From NCBI GenBank assembly GCA_036569045.1, contig DATCRI010000007.1, positions 1 to 64,000 on the forward strand: a stretch of DNA of 64,000 bases. Direction: 5' to 3'. The translations under genes and the position numbers were made by a program. Source of the stretch: Chthoniobacterales bacterium (GTDB taxonomy: Bacteria; Verrucomicrobiota; Verrucomicrobiia; Chthoniobacterales; JAATET01). Shown here in pieces: positions 33,293 to 38,415 of this stretch; within the stretch, counting starts at the first letter, position 1, and every line of letters starts with the position of its first letter. Below the pieces are notes generated by a model that had not been told where the DNA came from, made no database searches, and saw only the letters and a list, made by a program, of their open reading frames with translations.

Positions 33293-33592
33293 TCAACCGC
33301 TGCGAAGATGCCCCCGAATCCACGAGGGCGCCTTTCGGCAGTCCACGATGGCCCGCACCCGAACGAGCTCTCCCTCCACCGTGTAATAAATCGCAAAGGG
33401 GAAGCGGCGGGAGAGCGCCCGATGAAATCCCCTGTAGGCCTTTCGATGAATTCCCGCGTAAATTCTGAGCGAATCGACGTCCGAATACAGGCTATCGAGA
33501 AAATACGCGCCCAGGCCCGCCTCCCGATCCTCGTAGAAGCGGTATCCCTCGATGAGATCCCTCTTCGCCAGATCGAGGAGCAGCAGCCTCAT
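33293..33592 (-). CDS. parE: ParE/RelE-superfamily toxin
   Basis: 99-aa toxin of the RelE/ParE fold. Seen: LAKRDLIEGYRFYEDREAGLGAYFLDSLYSDVDSLR, then YRGFHRALSRRFPFAIYYTVEGELVRVRAIVDCRKAPSWIRGHL, which is the classic ParE pattern (RRFPFAIYY). The ATG at 33592 overlaps the antitoxin stop (ATGA); a longer start inside the antitoxin gene is unlikely. ParE proteins poison gyrase; RelE proteins cut mRNA. The sequence leans to ParE. Confidence 0.85.
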   Translation of the reverse strand: MRLLLLDLAKRDLIEGYRFYEDREAGLGAYFLDSLYSDVDSLRIYAGIHRKAYRGFHRALSRRFPFAIYYTVEGELVRVRAIVDCRKAPSWIRGHLRSG

Positions 33593-33807
33593 TGCAGAGA
33601 CTCTCGGATCTCTCGCTTGGCGACTTCCCAATCCACGAATTTCGCCTCACCCGATTGCACGAGCTTCTCCCGCTCGTCCAGGATGTCCTTGTGCCACTGC
33701 GGCACTTCGAGCTGGTCCTCCTGGGCGACGATTCCTTCCCAGAGGGCCTCCATCACGACGAGTTTCTCGCGAAGCGGGAGCTGTCTGATTTCGGCAAGCT
33801 CGATCAT
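33589..33807 (-). CDS. Addiction-module antitoxin component
   Basis: 72-aa acidic antitoxin of the 'putative addiction module component' family, which pairs with RelE/ParE toxins. It reads MIELAEIRQLPLREKLVVMEALWEGI, then a short helix and EAKFVDWEVAKREIRESLQ. The toxin start overlaps its stop codon by 4 bp. It lies at the downstream end of the cassette array, on the same strand as the cassettes. Confidence 0.85.
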   Translation of the reverse strand: MIELAEIRQLPLREKLVVMEALWEGIVAQEDQLEVPQWHKDILDEREKLVQSGEAKFVDWEVAKREIRESLQ

Positions 33808-33996
33808 GGGGGGATTCTAGCCAGTTTCCTGCGGCCTGCCAACAAGGCATCTCCTCGGCGCATCTGCCACGAGGGCTTCCCCTCGCCGGCCCTTTGCCCC
33901 GCTCCCGTGCGCGGAATCCAGATGGCGGGCGCGTGCGAAAGCGGAGTGGCCGAGAGAAAGGAACGCGCCGAGGCTGGAGGTTATCCGCAGCGCATT

Positions 33997-34003
33997 GTTA
34001 GAC
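33997..34003 (-). other. attC core site (R'' box) of the GFA cassette
   Basis: On the minus strand GTCTAAC, a perfect RYYYAAC core followed by AATGCGCTGCGGATAACC, like the starts of the three complete attC sites. The TAA stop of the GFA gene lies inside it. I cannot identify the matching left end between 33835 and 33990, so this last site is degenerate or truncated. Confidence 0.6.
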
Positions 34004-34408
34004 GATGGGTCCTTCATATTTTGGGAGGTCATCCGCCGAAACATACCAAGGGGCATGCTCGGCCCAGAAGATATTAGCCTGCGGTCTTATACCCGGATCC
34101 GACTCCAATAATCCACTGGGCACGACCCAGAACTGTTGATTACGGCTCATTTTGGGCAGAGGTGAACCGCAAATCCGGCAAAACCAACGGGGAAATCCCG
34201 GATTCTCCAGCGTCTCCACGAAGCGCTCGATGAGGTCTTCTCCCTGCGTCCATCTCACCGAATCCTTGGGAAACGCCATGTTTGCGACATGGAGGGAACC
34301 ACTCGATTTCTGGCATGAGCGGCAGTGACAATAGAGAAACTTGATGGGCGTTCCGGTAACCTGGAAGGCTACCCTACCACATAAACAGGACCCTGTAATT
34401 GGTTTCAT
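33998..34408 (-). CDS. GFA-family zinc protein (cassette gene)
   Basis: 136-aa protein of the glutathione-dependent formaldehyde-activating (Gfa) family. The zinc ligands are clear: GSCLCGRVAF (CxC), YCHCRSCQKSSGS (CxCxxC) and WFCRICGSPLPK (CxxC). The start ATG lies just outside the attC right end (34417-34423 on the plus strand), and its stop lies in the next attC core, as expected for a mobile cassette. Members are of uncertain function; formaldehyde activation is not established for most. Confidence 0.85.
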   Translation of the reverse strand: MKPITGSCLCGRVAFQVTGTPIKFLYCHCRSCQKSSGSLHVANMAFPKDSVRWTQGEDLIERFVETLENPGFPRWFCRICGSPLPKMSRNQQFWVVPSGLLESDPGIRPQANIFWAEHAPWYVSADDLPKYEGPIV

Positions 34409-34416
34409 AAATTATG

Positions 34417-34541
34417 GTCAAACGCCAAGCTCAGCTACCCCGAACGCGGGTTGGGGTTGGAACTCGCGTTGTGGGAGTAGCGAAACGTTCGTGAAAAGTG
34501 GCGCGTCGCGGCTAGGGGTTAGCTGCAGCGCCTTGTTAGCC
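34417..34541 (-). other. attC site 1 (integron cassette recombination site)
   Basis: 125 bp. On the minus strand it begins GGCTAACAAGGCGCTGCAG and ends GCTGAGCTTGGCGTTTGAC. The inner arms pair (AGCTACCCC with GGGGTTAGCT, one extra base as in natural attC sites). It lies between the 337-aa gene (34542-35555) and the GFA gene. The stop codon of the upstream gene directly abuts it. Confidence 0.85.
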
Positions 34542-35555
34542 CTATTTGGCTGTGAGTCTCCAGTCAAATGTTACCTCAGAAAAGCCATGCAAAATACACT
34601 TTTGTAATGTCGCGGTAAGCATGCATACTGCGAGCTCTGAAGCGTCGTGAAGAGCTTCGTAATCTTTTTCAACACTGCCATCTGGAAACCCTCCATCATT
34701 CCAACGCTGTATGGGAAAACTCCCATGAACAAAGCGTGACCGTAAATCATAAGCTTGTCCTACAATGTTAGATTTGTTCGGCCATTCTCCCAAAAATATT
34801 TTAACTTTTTCACTGAGTTGGCGCCGAAGATCGCCCACTCCTTGACAATAAAAAGCCTCTAATCCCTGCATCGCCCAAAATAGCATGCTCGGAACCTCTA
34901 CTGAGGAAAGTGAAAGCAGATTTGTAAATGAAGCTAGCGCCCTTTCAATTTTCGTATGGCCTACACCGTTTTCATGAAGCTCTAGCAATGGTGCCCAAGA
35001 AACTATTTTTTCAAATGGTAAAATAGATAGACTTGGCCAGCTTGGAGTGTCGTCTTCATCAATTGCGTTGTGAGGAAATCCAGAAACGGCACCGCATTGG
35101 TTCATCGGATGATCATGAATAAAAACACGGCCGGCAAACGAGTGTAAATCACCTGGATGAGCTAATGAACCATAAATAAGAGAATCTTGAAGAAAAGATG
35201 CGAGTTCACTTGCAGCGATTCCGTATAAGTCTTCGTCTGTGAACTTTGAGTCAGGATTGTGGCGCGCGAGTTCATCTAAATCATATTGCAATCCAGCTTC
35301 TACAAGAACGAACGTTATGAACCGTTGTTCAAACATCCAAGGGTGAGTGCCGATAGCAATTTGCTTAATTATTTTCGCCGAAGGAGCTTTTACTAAAGCG
35401 GATATAGTCGTAATGCCTGGCTGTAGCGCCTTTGCAAGTTGGGGTAAACCTGTGCAATACGCAGCAATAGCAGCTTTCGATTTTTCAACAGTTCCTGGGA
35501 AAGGTATGGTCCTTATCGGAAGCCACGCTGTCAATTCGAAGATGTTACTTAACAT
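34542..35555 (-). CDS. Hypothetical cassette protein with HEPN-like motif
   Basis: 337-aa protein I cannot name. It is markedly A+T-richer than the chromosome around it and bounded by attC sites. The C-terminal part has YDLRSRFVHGSFPIQRW (R272 to H277), which fits the Rx4H motif of HEPN RNase domains and the 'RSxxVHG' style of Apea-like HEPN proteins; the surrounding segment is helical (LLFWAMQGLEAFYCQ). The N-terminal 200 residues show no known fold. A defence role is possible for such cassettes, but this is inference. Confidence 0.75.
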   Translation of the reverse strand: MLSNIFELTAWLPIRTIPFPGTVEKSKAAIAAYCTGLPQLAKALQPGITTISALVKAPSAKIIKQIAIGTHPWMFEQRFITFVLVEAGLQYDLDELARHNPDSKFTDEDLYGIAASELASFLQDSLIYGSLAHPGDLHSFAGRVFIHDHPMNQCGAVSGFPHNAIDEDDTPSWPSLSILPFEKIVSWAPLLELHENGVGHTKIERALASFTNLLSLSSVEVPSMLFWAMQGLEAFYCQGVGDLRRQLSEKVKIFLGEWPNKSNIVGQAYDLRSRFVHGSFPIQRWNDGGFPDGSVEKDYEALHDASELAVCMLTATLQKCILHGFSEVTFDWRLTAK

Positions 35556-35556
35556 G

Positions 35557-35683
35557 GGCTAACGCTAAGCTCAGCTACCCCGAGCGCGGGTTGAACTCTT
35601 GGGTGAGTGTGGACAGAAAGGAAAGACGGTCGTGAAAAGCTGACGCGATGCGGCTAGGGGTTAGCTGCAGCGCCTTGTTCGGT
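35557..35683 (-). other. attC site 2 (integron cassette recombination site)
   Basis: 127 bp. On the minus strand it runs from ACCGAAC (then AAGGCGCTGCAGCTAACC) to GTTAGCC next to the ATG of the 337-aa gene. It is over 80% alike to attC 1 and 3 by eye in both arms (CTCAGCTACCCC / GGGGTTAGCTGCAG). R'' here matches the GTTCGGT start of its own cassette, as in a circularised cassette. Confidence 0.88.
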
Positions 35684-35685
35684 CT

Positions 35686-36237
35686 TCATGTATCTTCGGA
35701 AGGCGTTCTCGAAGAATCTCCAATCTCGATTCTAAAGCAACGGTAGCCATCTTCACTTTCCGGCATAGAAGAAGCGCGCTTATATCGGAAATACATAACG
35801 CGATCTTTCTCTCTGAATGTCTTTGTATTTTTGGTCTTTTCTAAATCGCGAAGCGCTTTATCGATTTCATTGATACTTGGTTTGTTGTCTCGCATCAGTG
35901 AGAGAATCAAAAAGCGTGCGATAGGAAGACACTGATCATAGGTATGCTCTCGCTGAGGATCGTGGCCTAAATAGAATTGAAAAAATGCTCCGTAAATTTT
36001 TCCGTGACTATCGTGGGTAATGTAAACAGAAGTGTCGTTCTGCCCGTGGAGTGTCCAAACGGTATAATGGGGAAACCTTTCGTCAGGATCGTTTCGCTCC
36101 ATGAGTTTGTCCAAGGCTGGAGCCACTTCCTTCATTGAAACACCTAAAGGGTGAAGATCGGCAGTCAGCTCATCTGGTGTTTCGCAATAGGCGCGATGGA
36201 GCGTGCAAAGAAGAATGACGGCGTAGAAAAATTTCAT
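35686..36237 (-). CDS. Secreted hypothetical cassette protein
   Basis: 183-aa protein with a signal peptide (MKFFYAVILLCTLHRAYC, mature from about 19). Acidic and hydrophilic, with an IYGAFFQFYLGHDP segment and a Lys/Glu-rich tail. No domain recognised. The gene sits between attC 2 and attC 3 and is A+T-richer than the chromosome, so it is a cassette gene. Confidence 0.75.
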   Translation of the reverse strand: MKFFYAVILLCTLHRAYCETPDELTADLHPLGVSMKEVAPALDKLMERNDPDERFPHYTVWTLHGQNDTSVYITHDSHGKIYGAFFQFYLGHDPQREHTYDQCLPIARFLILSLMRDNKPSINEIDKALRDLEKTKNTKTFREKDRVMYFRYKRASSMPESEDGYRCFRIEIGDSSRTPSEDT

Positions 36238-36247
36238 GATTTATATG

Positions 36248-36373
36248 ACCGAACGCCAAGCTCAGCTGCCCCGAACGCGGGTTGGGGTTGGAACTCGCGT
36301 TGGAGGAGTAACGGAACGTTCGTAAAAAGGTAGCGCGTCGCGGCTAGGGGTTAGCTGCAGCGCCTTGTTCGGT
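36248..36373 (-). other. attC site 3 (integron cassette recombination site)
   Basis: 126 bp. Minus-strand ends ACCGAAC (36373) and GTTCGGT (36248) are perfect complements. The inner arms CTCAGCTGCCCC and GGGGTTAGCTGCAG pair with one bulge. The 3' end of the acetyltransferase gene reads about 10 codons into it. Confidence 0.88.
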
Positions 36374-36844
36374 CTTGATAGATAGAAACTTTTCTTCTGC
36401 GAAGGTGATGAAACCCATCTTTCTCCAAAAAGCATTTGAGACTGTGTTAGCACTGACTGTCCGAAGCTCAATTCGATCTGCTCCTTGGGCGAGTAACCAA
36501 GCCTTCGCTTCTTTGAATAATAATTCACCGATTCCTTGCTTTCGCTGATCGTGTCGAACGGCTAAATCAGAAATGTAGCCATGCTTCCGATGAATAAATA
36601 CGGGCGGCTTTTCAGCAATGCGAGCTAAACAATATCCCAGGATAGAACCTTCATTTTCAACGAGGATGTTTAGCGACAATGAATCCTCTAATTTTTTCTC
36701 AAGATGGTCTCGGAAAAAATCAGGAGCTTCTGAGTTCACACAAAAAATGGAATCAATATCGGAGTGGAACTGCATGAACTCACTCCACAGTGCAATTACC
36801 TGAGAAACGTCTGATTTCCGAATGGGACGTGTGATAGGATTCAT
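36344..36844 (-). CDS. GNAT-family N-acetyltransferase (cassette gene)
   Basis: 166-aa GNAT protein that transfers acetyl from acetyl-CoA to an unknown amine. Seen: ITRPIRKSDVSQVIALWSEFM at the start, then GYISDLAVRHDQRKQGIGELLFKEAKAWLLAQGAD (acetyl-CoA loop RKQGIG) and SNAFWRKMGFITF. The last residues (TEQGAAANP) are encoded by the attC site downstream. GNAT genes are frequent integron cargo. Confidence 0.88.
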   Translation of the reverse strand: MNPITRPIRKSDVSQVIALWSEFMQFHSDIDSIFCVNSEAPDFFRDHLEKKLEDSLSLNILVENEGSILGYCLARIAEKPPVFIHRKHGYISDLAVRHDQRKQGIGELLFKEAKAWLLAQGADRIELRTVSANTVSNAFWRKMGFITFAEEKFLSIKTEQGAAANP

Positions 36845-36850
36845 TAAATG

Positions 36851-36937
36851 ACCGAACAGCTTGTTGGATTGAATGGGGTGCTGGGGAGATCGGTAGGGGG
36901 AGCTGATCTTTAAGGGAGTGGTGGCGGGATGTTAGAC
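36851..36937 (-). other. Cassette-array boundary with duplicated core-like repeats
   Basis: The array starts on the minus strand with ATCCAACAAGC directly joined to TGTTCGGTC, i.e. an RYYYAAC box next to a GTTRRRY box without the usual 110 bp between them. A 15-bp direct repeat GAATGGGGTGCTGGG lies at 36870-36884 and 36939-36953, each preceded by a GTTRRRY-like heptamer (GTTGGAT, GTTAGAC at 36931-36937). It may be a collapsed attC or an attI remnant. Confidence 0.45.
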
Positions 36938-37005
36938 AGAATGGGGTGCTGGGACAATGGGCAACTTGCGGGCGGGGCGGCTGCCCCGCCCGTGGGTTGC
37001 GGGAC

Positions 37006-37929
37006 TTAGCTGACGGTGATCTGGGCGGGGTCGCCGGGCTGGCTATCCCCGGCTTTGTTGGCGGCGAGGATGCGGACTTTGACGGTGGCGCCGACGGGGA
37101 GGTCCGTGAGGGTGGCTTCGTCGTCGGTGGTCTGCTGGTCTTCCACCCAGTCGGCGTCGGTGCCGATGACCAATTTTTGCACCTTGTAGCGTTCGGCGCG
37201 GCGGGCGCTGGACCAGTCGGCGAGGACGAGGCCGGGGCCGCCGTTCGTGAGGACGAGCTGGGCGGGGACGGCGGGCGTGGAGGGATCGTCGGGGCGGTTG
37301 AGGCCGAAGGCATACCAGCGGGGGTCGTCCCCGTCGATGAGCTGGGTGAGCTCGCGGACGAGGCCGATGAGGCGCTGGCGGAGCTTCTCGGCGGCGGCGT
37401 CGCGGAGGGCTTTCTTCTGGCCGGCGGTGGTGTTGGCATTGTTCACGGCGGCGCGGGCGTTCGAGAGGGCGGTGGCCTGCGCGTCAGCGGCGGCGGCGCT
37501 CACGCCGAGGCCGAGGTTCTCCTTGCCGGGGTTTGCGGTGAGATAGGCCTTCGCGAGGGGCAGCAGGCCGAGGCGGCCGTCGGTGCTGACGGGGAGGGCG
37601 ACGCCGGGGCCGGGGAAGCCGGCGGCGGCCCACTCGGCGCTCCACGCGTCGCCGAGGGAGATGGAGAGGACTTTCTTGTAGGCGGCGAGGTAGGCTTTGG
37701 CGTTGCTGTCGGCGATCTGCGCGGCGTTGCTGGCGGCCTGCTTCGCCGAACGGGCGGCCTGGAACTGGCTCTCGGCCGTGGTGGCGGCGCTGAGGTCCGT
37801 CGTGATGGCGGCGGCGGTGTTTTGTTGGAGGTTGATCGCGCTGCCGTGGGCGGTGGCGCCGTCGGCGGCGTCCTCGGCGAGGGCGAAGATGACGTTGAAA
37901 GGACCAGTAGGAATTTCGTTGGATGCCAT
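37006..37929 (-). CDS. Fibronectin type III domain protein
   Basis: 307-aa protein. The N-terminal two-thirds are Ala-rich and helical (ATTAESQFQAARSAKQAASNAAQIADSNAKAYLAAYKKVL), followed by a loop and VRELTQLIDGDDPRWYAFGLNRPDD; the C-terminal 90 residues are an fn3 domain (LADWSSARRAERYKVQKLVIG, TLTDLPVGATVKVRILAANKAGDSQPG). No signal peptide is seen. Related proteins with the 'DDPRWYAFG' block are common in Verrucomicrobiota, with no known function. It flanks the cassette array. Confidence 0.78.
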   Translation of the reverse strand: MASNEIPTGPFNVIFALAEDAADGATAHGSAINLQQNTAAAITTDLSAATTAESQFQAARSAKQAASNAAQIADSNAKAYLAAYKKVLSISLGDAWSAEWAAAGFPGPGVALPVSTDGRLGLLPLAKAYLTANPGKENLGLGVSAAAADAQATALSNARAAVNNANTTAGQKKALRDAAAEKLRQRLIGLVRELTQLIDGDDPRWYAFGLNRPDDPSTPAVPAQLVLTNGGPGLVLADWSSARRAERYKVQKLVIGTDADWVEDQQTTDDEATLTDLPVGATVKVRILAANKAGDSQPGDPAQITVS

Positions 37930-38121
37930 AGGTAGGATATTCGTGTGTCGTCTTAGGCCAGCGCTGGCGGTTCGCCAATCCTTTTATGTTGCCGCCTGAC
38001 TTTCTGGGGCCCTGCGCTAAAAAACGCACTTTCGCGCGGCGGCGGCGGGGGTTTTTCTCTGTAAACGCGGGAAATGGGAGCCGGCGGCGATGGCCGGGTG
38101 GTCGAAATTGCGGGAAAAAAG
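37930..38121. other. Intergenic spacer before the hairpin array
   Basis: No gene recognised. The last 42 bases (38080-38121) look like a decayed copy of the 42-bp unit that follows (GGCGATGGCCGGG versus GGAGATGCCGGG). Confidence 0.5.
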
Positions 38122-38415
38122 GTCGTCGGAGATGCCGGGACGACCTCTTTTTTGAAAAATCTGGTCATGGGAGGAGCTGGGATGACCGGTTTTCCCGCAA
38201 AACAAGTCGCCGGAGCAGCCGGGATGACTTCTTTTTCCAAAAAGGAGGGCACCGGAGGAGCTGGGACGAGCCGTTTTGCGGCAAAACAGGTCGTCGGAGA
38301 TGCCGGGATGATCTCTTTTTTGAAAAATCTGGTCGTGGGAGGAGCCGGGATGACCAGTTTTCCCGCAAAACGGGTCGTCGGAGCAGCCGGGACGGGCGGA
38401 TTTTTCGTAAAAGCG
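38122..38415. repeat. Seven tandem 42-bp hairpin repeats
   Basis: Exactly seven units of 42 bp, starting GTCGTCGGAGATGCCGGGA or variants, then a hairpin. Units start at 38122, 38164, 38206, 38248, 38290, 38332 and 38374. Units 1-3 resemble 5-7, so a 168-bp block was duplicated. Inner stems differ but stay paired: TTTTTT/AAAAA (1, 5), GTTTT/AAAAC (2, 6), CTTTTT/AAAAAG (3), GTTTTGC/GCAAAAC (4); outer GACC/GGTC is kept in most. Unit 7 is weaker. Located between the esterase and fn3 genes. Confidence 0.9.

Follow-up and report, generated by a model that had tools for sequence, protein, structure and literature searches.

A four-cassette integron array headed by an orphan attI-like site, without a neighbouring integrase gene, in a draft genome of Chthoniobacterales

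An array of integron gene cassettes lies in a 64,000-nucleotide stretch of DNA (positions 1 to 64,000 of contig DATCRI010000007.1; hereafter the window) from a Chthoniobacterales bacterium (assembly GCA_036569045.1). This genome, here G000, is a draft of 3.43 Mb in 91 contigs that is 98% complete, with the window on contig C7, and it was compared with three genomes of the same genus (congeners G001, G002 and G003). An initial annotation of the window had described three attC recombination sites framing single genes on the minus strand and classed them as an integrase-less integron cassette array (CALIN). Reading of the sequence together with a repeat search recovered three long similar sites at that place, and the array proved to be present. 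A decayed fourth attC and an attI-like site at the head of the array are additions to that description; the 5' end of the array is not bare.

The cassettes, all on the minus strand, show the properties expected of an integron array, namely mostly a single gene per cassette, one orientation and foreign composition. Cassette 1 (36254-36856; 603 bp) carries a GNAT acetyltransferase gene (36344-36844; PF00583, 9e-18), cassette 2 (35563-36253; 691 bp) a gene for a predicted secreted protein of 183 amino acids (35686-36237), cassette 3 (34423-35562; 1140 bp) a gene for a 337-amino acid protein with an Rx4H (HEPN-like) motif (34542-35555) and cassette 4, which starts at 34422, a GFA-family gene (33998-34408; PF04828, 1.7e-28). 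The junctions (G of G|TT) fall at 36857, 36254, 35563 and 34423. As the annotation had remarked, the cassettes are visibly A+T-rich (45-47% G+C), the three complete ones having 45.9, 46.5 and 45.4% G+C compared to 68-69% in the flanks. GNAT and GFA proteins, both confirmed by family matches, are ordinary cassette cargo. The 183-amino acid protein matches no family, and no relative of it was found, plasmids included. For the 337-amino acid protein, the proposed HEPN-like assignment is based only on a motif, DLRSRFVHG, which also occurs in an Alteromonas plasmid protein of 25% identity, and on these grounds a HEPN fold is plausible; Pfam, PADLOC and NCBIfam gave no match, and the AlphaFold model is unusable (pLDDT 35). 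PADLOC detected no defence gene. No close cassette gene occurs also in the congener loci compared (the best match is GNAT, 30% over 92 residues), and the contents have therefore turned over or arisen independently. Many cassette genes run into their attC, and hence end in a common attC-encoded peptide tail, (E)Q(G/D)AA(A/V/T)NP (e.g. the window gene at 36344; L028 7930; L030 8705; L032 4797 and 5345; L027 9311).

The three well-preserved sites, attC 1 (36246-36376), attC 2 (35555-35686) and attC 3 (34415-34544), have the layout of an attC on the minus strand: an R'' box (ACCGAAC or GGCTAAC) is followed by the five-base spacer AAGGC and an L'' box, GCTGCAGCT, that carries one extrahelical G, and a mirrored L' box, AGCTGAGC, is followed by a spacer and a GTT-type R', so that the paired R''/R' and the L''/L' stem are both present. 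The covariance-model check proposed by the annotation was run with a home-made model, R2, under which all three sites score (159.7, 140.6 and 154.3 bits, respectively); the model was built from these sites, and their own scores thus follow by construction. A first model, R1, which used an RNAalifold fold, was set aside since it lacked the attC architecture. R2 also matched attC 4 (33883-34006, minus strand; 18.7 bits, E 0.013), which ends the GFA cassette and is decayed in its 3' half, with an R'' of GTCTAAC that is the near-complement of the start of cassette 4, GTTTGAC. In total, R2 matched 15 sites on 7 contigs of G000 and 30 more in the three congeners, and none in one genome from another family. 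The fold is supported by covariation across 46 sites: in an alignment that was fitted to the structure and leans towards the model, 14 of 24 pairs carry double changes (6.1 in shuffled data), and the share of cells that pair is 86%, as opposed to 25-40% with partners slid. Folding of the sites as single sequences was not diagnostic (bottom-strand z-scores of -1.3 to +0.1), and a scan with Rfam 15 gave no attC match, its single result being a tRNA. In the GTDB collection the attC core is present on 8 contigs, which belong to four genome bins of Verrucomicrobiota titled Chthoniobacterales, Terrimicrobiaceae, Verrucomicrobiaceae and 'uncultured Verrucomicrobia'; it was not found in viral contigs. 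A further uncultured Verrucomicrobia bin (L063; CAIQAB010000008.1) has four matches to the attC model.

The cassette boundaries provide evidence that needs no fold assumption. The annotation had proposed that cassette ends follow the logic of a circle, and this holds exactly over 8 nt in all three complete window cassettes (GTTCGGTC, GTTCGGTC and GTTAGCCC). Across the genus, 26 of 34 cassettes have a start that is exactly complementary over 8 nt to the R'' at their opposite end (shuffled partners: mean 4.8, maximum 12), in contrast to 3 of 37 cases of complementarity within a single attC. Such complementarity across cassettes, rarely found within attC, is the signature of former circles.

At its 5' end the array begins with a 45-nt attI-like site that ends in GTT (36855-36899, minus strand). 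Integrase-linked 45-nt attI sites of the congeners, used as queries taken from genomes other than G000, match it at 33-34 of 45 positions; the next best places in the window match at 25-27, and the maximum in 200 simulated 64-kb sequences was 27. The boundary G|TT at 36857 is preceded by ...CAGCACCCCATTCAATCCAACAAGCT, where the congeners' intI-linked integrons have ...CATCACCCCCATCAATCCAATATACT|GTT, and recombination would be expected between this G and the TT of cassette 1. In two congeners the intI-linked attI is 96% conserved from -42 to +2, and immediately upstream of it the DNA cannot be aligned, which suggests functional constraint on the 45-bp region. Judged by its sequence, the head of the array is thus an attI-type site, as at the head of a complete integron, and a boundary unlike attI, the mark of an attG-type site, was not seen here. 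A possible second, degenerate attI-like copy lies 68 bp upstream (36923-36967, minus strand; it forms a 24-nt direct repeat, D13), lacks the GTT and matches at 25-27 of 45 positions, a value in the range of the chance maximum. With two or more attC sites, one gene per cassette and no intI nearby, the array in the window conforms to the definition of a CALIN (IntegronFinder; PMC9024848). That label is nonetheless incomplete: the array retains a 5' attI-type site that is found at several loci and tends to adjoin an Fn3-type gene, and intI is probably encoded elsewhere in the genome. Given that the site is common to the intI-linked integrons of three congeners, the array represents an attI platform without intI, not a loose cluster of attC sites. 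Sites of this kind outside class 1 integrons are poorly described and are not detected by IntegronFinder (PMC9024848).

The genome contains no fewer than five satellite arrays, on contigs C7 (the window array), C18, C19, C48 and C60. All five G000 arrays that have at least two attC sites and an assembled 5' end possess attI without an adjacent intI, and one further orphan-attI array is found in a relative (G002:C47). On each of these six contigs, the best match to the intI-linked attI is the 5' boundary of the array. When two mismatches were allowed, an 18-nt attI core occurred at 8 places in 11 genomes, 7 of them within the genus; each of these 7 is the head of an array, with intI in three cases and without it in four, and a reversed control gave none. 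Within the genus, the core TCAATCCAACAAGCTGTT is confined to the 5' boundaries of arrays. On C48 the GTT of attI is missing its G, and a single attC site on C11 has a different boundary. This C11 site (L031 7813) and one on G002:C40 (L037 986) have another 5' boundary in common, TCGTATAATCAC..|GTT, which may be either an attG-like site or a further type of attI.

Similarity among the orphan sites extends beyond attI into their flanks. Directly upstream of the window site, and co-oriented with the cassettes, is a gene for a 307-amino acid protein with a C-terminal Fn3-like domain (37006-37929, minus strand; weak fn3 match), itself preceded by a tract of 42-nt tandem repeats (38113-38392). The window is alike to C60 from -192 to +2 (74%), to G002:C47 from -277 to -156 (80%) and to C48 at attI and in the tandem repeats, which in the whole genome match only C48, upstream of the orphan-attI array there. 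Further copies of the 3' end of the Fn3-like gene lie upstream of the arrays on C60 and on G002:C47, and C48, C60 and G002:C47 retain fragments of the repeat/Fn3 flank. In both the window and C18 tandem repeats come first, followed by the Fn3-type gene, attI and the cassettes, and the Fn3-type genes at these two loci are two of only three with fn3 matches in the genome. BLASTP did not align the two proteins significantly (E 0.25), and their kinship is therefore argued only from domain and position. The third Fn3 gene, a paralogue of the window gene on C49 (20279; L090 7479-8534; 38% identical, E 9e-54), was considered as an empty platform and rejected, as no attI, attC or long repeat tract lies beside it. 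The layout of G001:C64 may be similar, with an upstream protein that has no Pfam match.

The position of two arrays was traced in relatives. On C18 the entire block, from array through repeats, sits between two PPIase genes that in G001 and G002 stand next to each other, about 250 and 160 bp apart. This indicates that the block came in by one or more insertion events that brought no intI; less simply, it may have been lost in both relatives. A gene order fixed in the relatives, which had been named as a finding that would speak against the initial annotation, was not observed for the window: the genes flanking its array are rearranged in G001 and G003, with no attC beside them, and in G002 the region is cut by a contig end. 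The position of the array is therefore not conserved, yet no clean empty site can be drawn. A search for promoters upstream of the array found none above chance level. On its other side, directly downstream of the decayed attC 4, lies a putative toxin-antitoxin pair of host-like composition (33293-33807), consisting of a 72-amino acid Unstab_antitox protein (PF09720) and a 112-amino acid partner.

As the annotation had stated, the window holds no integrase gene, and none adjoins the array, so that the intI beside attI of a complete integron is not found at this locus. Remains of intI were likewise not found at C19 and the other arrays; one match in that search (L028) was a XerC/D-type gene. 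In all three congeners intI adjoins STAS and ABC2 genes, with hldE, hisA, hisB and aguB next in G001 and G002, which gives the conserved order intI-STAS-ABC2-hldE-hisA-hisB-aguB. G000 carries aguB, hisB, hisA and hldE on C18, where the contig stops 49 bp past hldE, and its assembly lacks the ABC2 gene, though this is 71-81% identical among the congeners. With the order broken by the contig end and ABC2 absent, the intI locus of G000 has probably fallen into an assembly gap, and the genome as a whole is probably not 'integrase-less'; overcounting of CALINs in draft genomes is a known effect (PMC9024848). The search for intI elsewhere in the genome that the annotation had advised thus ends at a conserved locus cut by the end of C18. 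An array on C51 (28965-29151; L026), which runs off its contig at the 5' end, may be a candidate continuation of the missing intI-linked integron. The integrase of the genus (G001 to G003: L015 5714-7288, L016 11043-12515 and L017 28-1731) bears an N-terminal extension of about 150 amino acids with a weak match to a second SAM-like core-binding domain (G001 segment, E 4e-5). A related extension is found in IntI of other genera of the order, with further loci at L082, L083, L087 and L088; a literature search for integron integrases with an N-terminal extension found, by title or abstract, no report on IntI itself.

Taken together, the window is best explained as a four-cassette integron array on an orphan attI, one of several satellite platforms served in trans by a single IntI encoded elsewhere, a reading to which we assign a probability of about 0.62. 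The arrays would have been filled by the IntI of the genus, from a his-cluster-side locus that is missing from the assembly. This integrase would fold the bottom strand of the attC of a circular cassette and recombine it with the orphan attI just as it does with its own; repeats, Fn3-like gene and attI may have spread together as a unit, by some duplication or insertion process. Because no promoter was found above chance, the cassettes would have to be expressed through the co-oriented upstream gene or from promoters that they carry themselves. That a functional IntI can mobilize CALINs in trans has been stated (PMC12444791). Several observations count against activity in trans. A search of the G000 assembly with the TIGR02249 model and a congener IntI query yielded only XerC/D-type and other recombinases, in a genome that is a draft in 91 contigs; no attI without cassettes was found, and acceptance of cassettes at an orphan attI was not seen. 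The decay of the last attC and the loss of G from the C48 GTT suggest that some of the satellite arrays may be relics.

The retained attI, the decayed attC 4 and the lack of intI in the assembly would also fit the usual account of CALINs, in which a complete integron stood at this spot and lost its intI in place, leaving attI and cassettes behind; CALINs have been proposed to be degraded integrons (PMC9024848), and there is a precedent in Treponema phagedenis (PMC3607928). However, in each of the three congeners the intI-linked integron occupies a conserved locus of its own; the C18 block, when compared with two of them, is inserted DNA without any trace of intI; and the remains upstream of attI are those of an Fn3 gene rather than of intI. 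Loss would also have to be invoked at each of at least five loci, or once with subsequent duplication, and we consider this origin unlikely. Less likely again is that IntI placed cassettes at chance chromosomal (attG-type) sites, with a boundary that resembles attI as the preferred target. Such insertion is described for integron integrases (as cited in PMC12444791 and PMC12901181), and the boundaries of C11 (L031), G002:C40 (L037) and perhaps G001:C64 depart from the attI consensus, but the similarity at the window site spans about 40 bp and takes in positions well away from the crossover, attI recurs in all five G000 arrays of two or more attC that have an assembled head, and the orphan sites have flanks in common.

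An artefact of assembly or binning, through which pieces of one intI-linked array were wrongly joined to chromosomal contigs, is very improbable: repeated attC sites do break assemblies, and the C51 array meets a contig end, yet the window array is flanked by high-GC host genes in the middle of its contig, the attI boundaries differ among loci and a congener sequenced in another study has a like platform with shared flank (G002:C47). That the sites are chance repeats, an idea to which the weak fold of single sites might lend itself, is already refuted: 46 related sites show covariation, the cassette ends are closed and there are relatives linked to intI.

The satellite platforms resemble several known systems in part. 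The sedentary chromosomal integrons of the same genus (G001:C105, G002:C67 and G003:C52) have the same attC family and attI core, but there intI, divergent from the array, stands beside attI, where the window has the Fn3-type gene. Dispersed CALINs of Xanthomonas similarly comprise several integrase-less arrays away from a single intI locus (ilvD), though the accessible part of that report mentions no attI (PMC12444791), which here is present with part of the flank co-duplicated. Delta-attI-type cassettes of mobile integrons also place attI away from intI and are active there in recombination assays; in that case (PMC12901181) attI replaces attC at the ends of cassettes in class 1 arrays, whereas here it heads whole chromosomal arrays. 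A doubtful but possible extension is that the genus has a second, integrase-less platform type, made up of repeats, Fn3-type gene and attI, moved as a block and used in trans by IntI, with one integrase serving a network of arrays.

The IntegronFinder 2.0 survey found CALINs and complete integrons at about the same frequency (PMC9024848), and CALINs may arise by integrase loss, attG insertion or another route. Service in trans and decay to a relic become directly testable alternatives in a genus whose orphan arrays retain a recognizable attI and where relatives show the empty site of one such array. If the satellites work, counts of integrons based on intI would underestimate the number of cassette ports per genome, and attI models built for each genus would reveal them.

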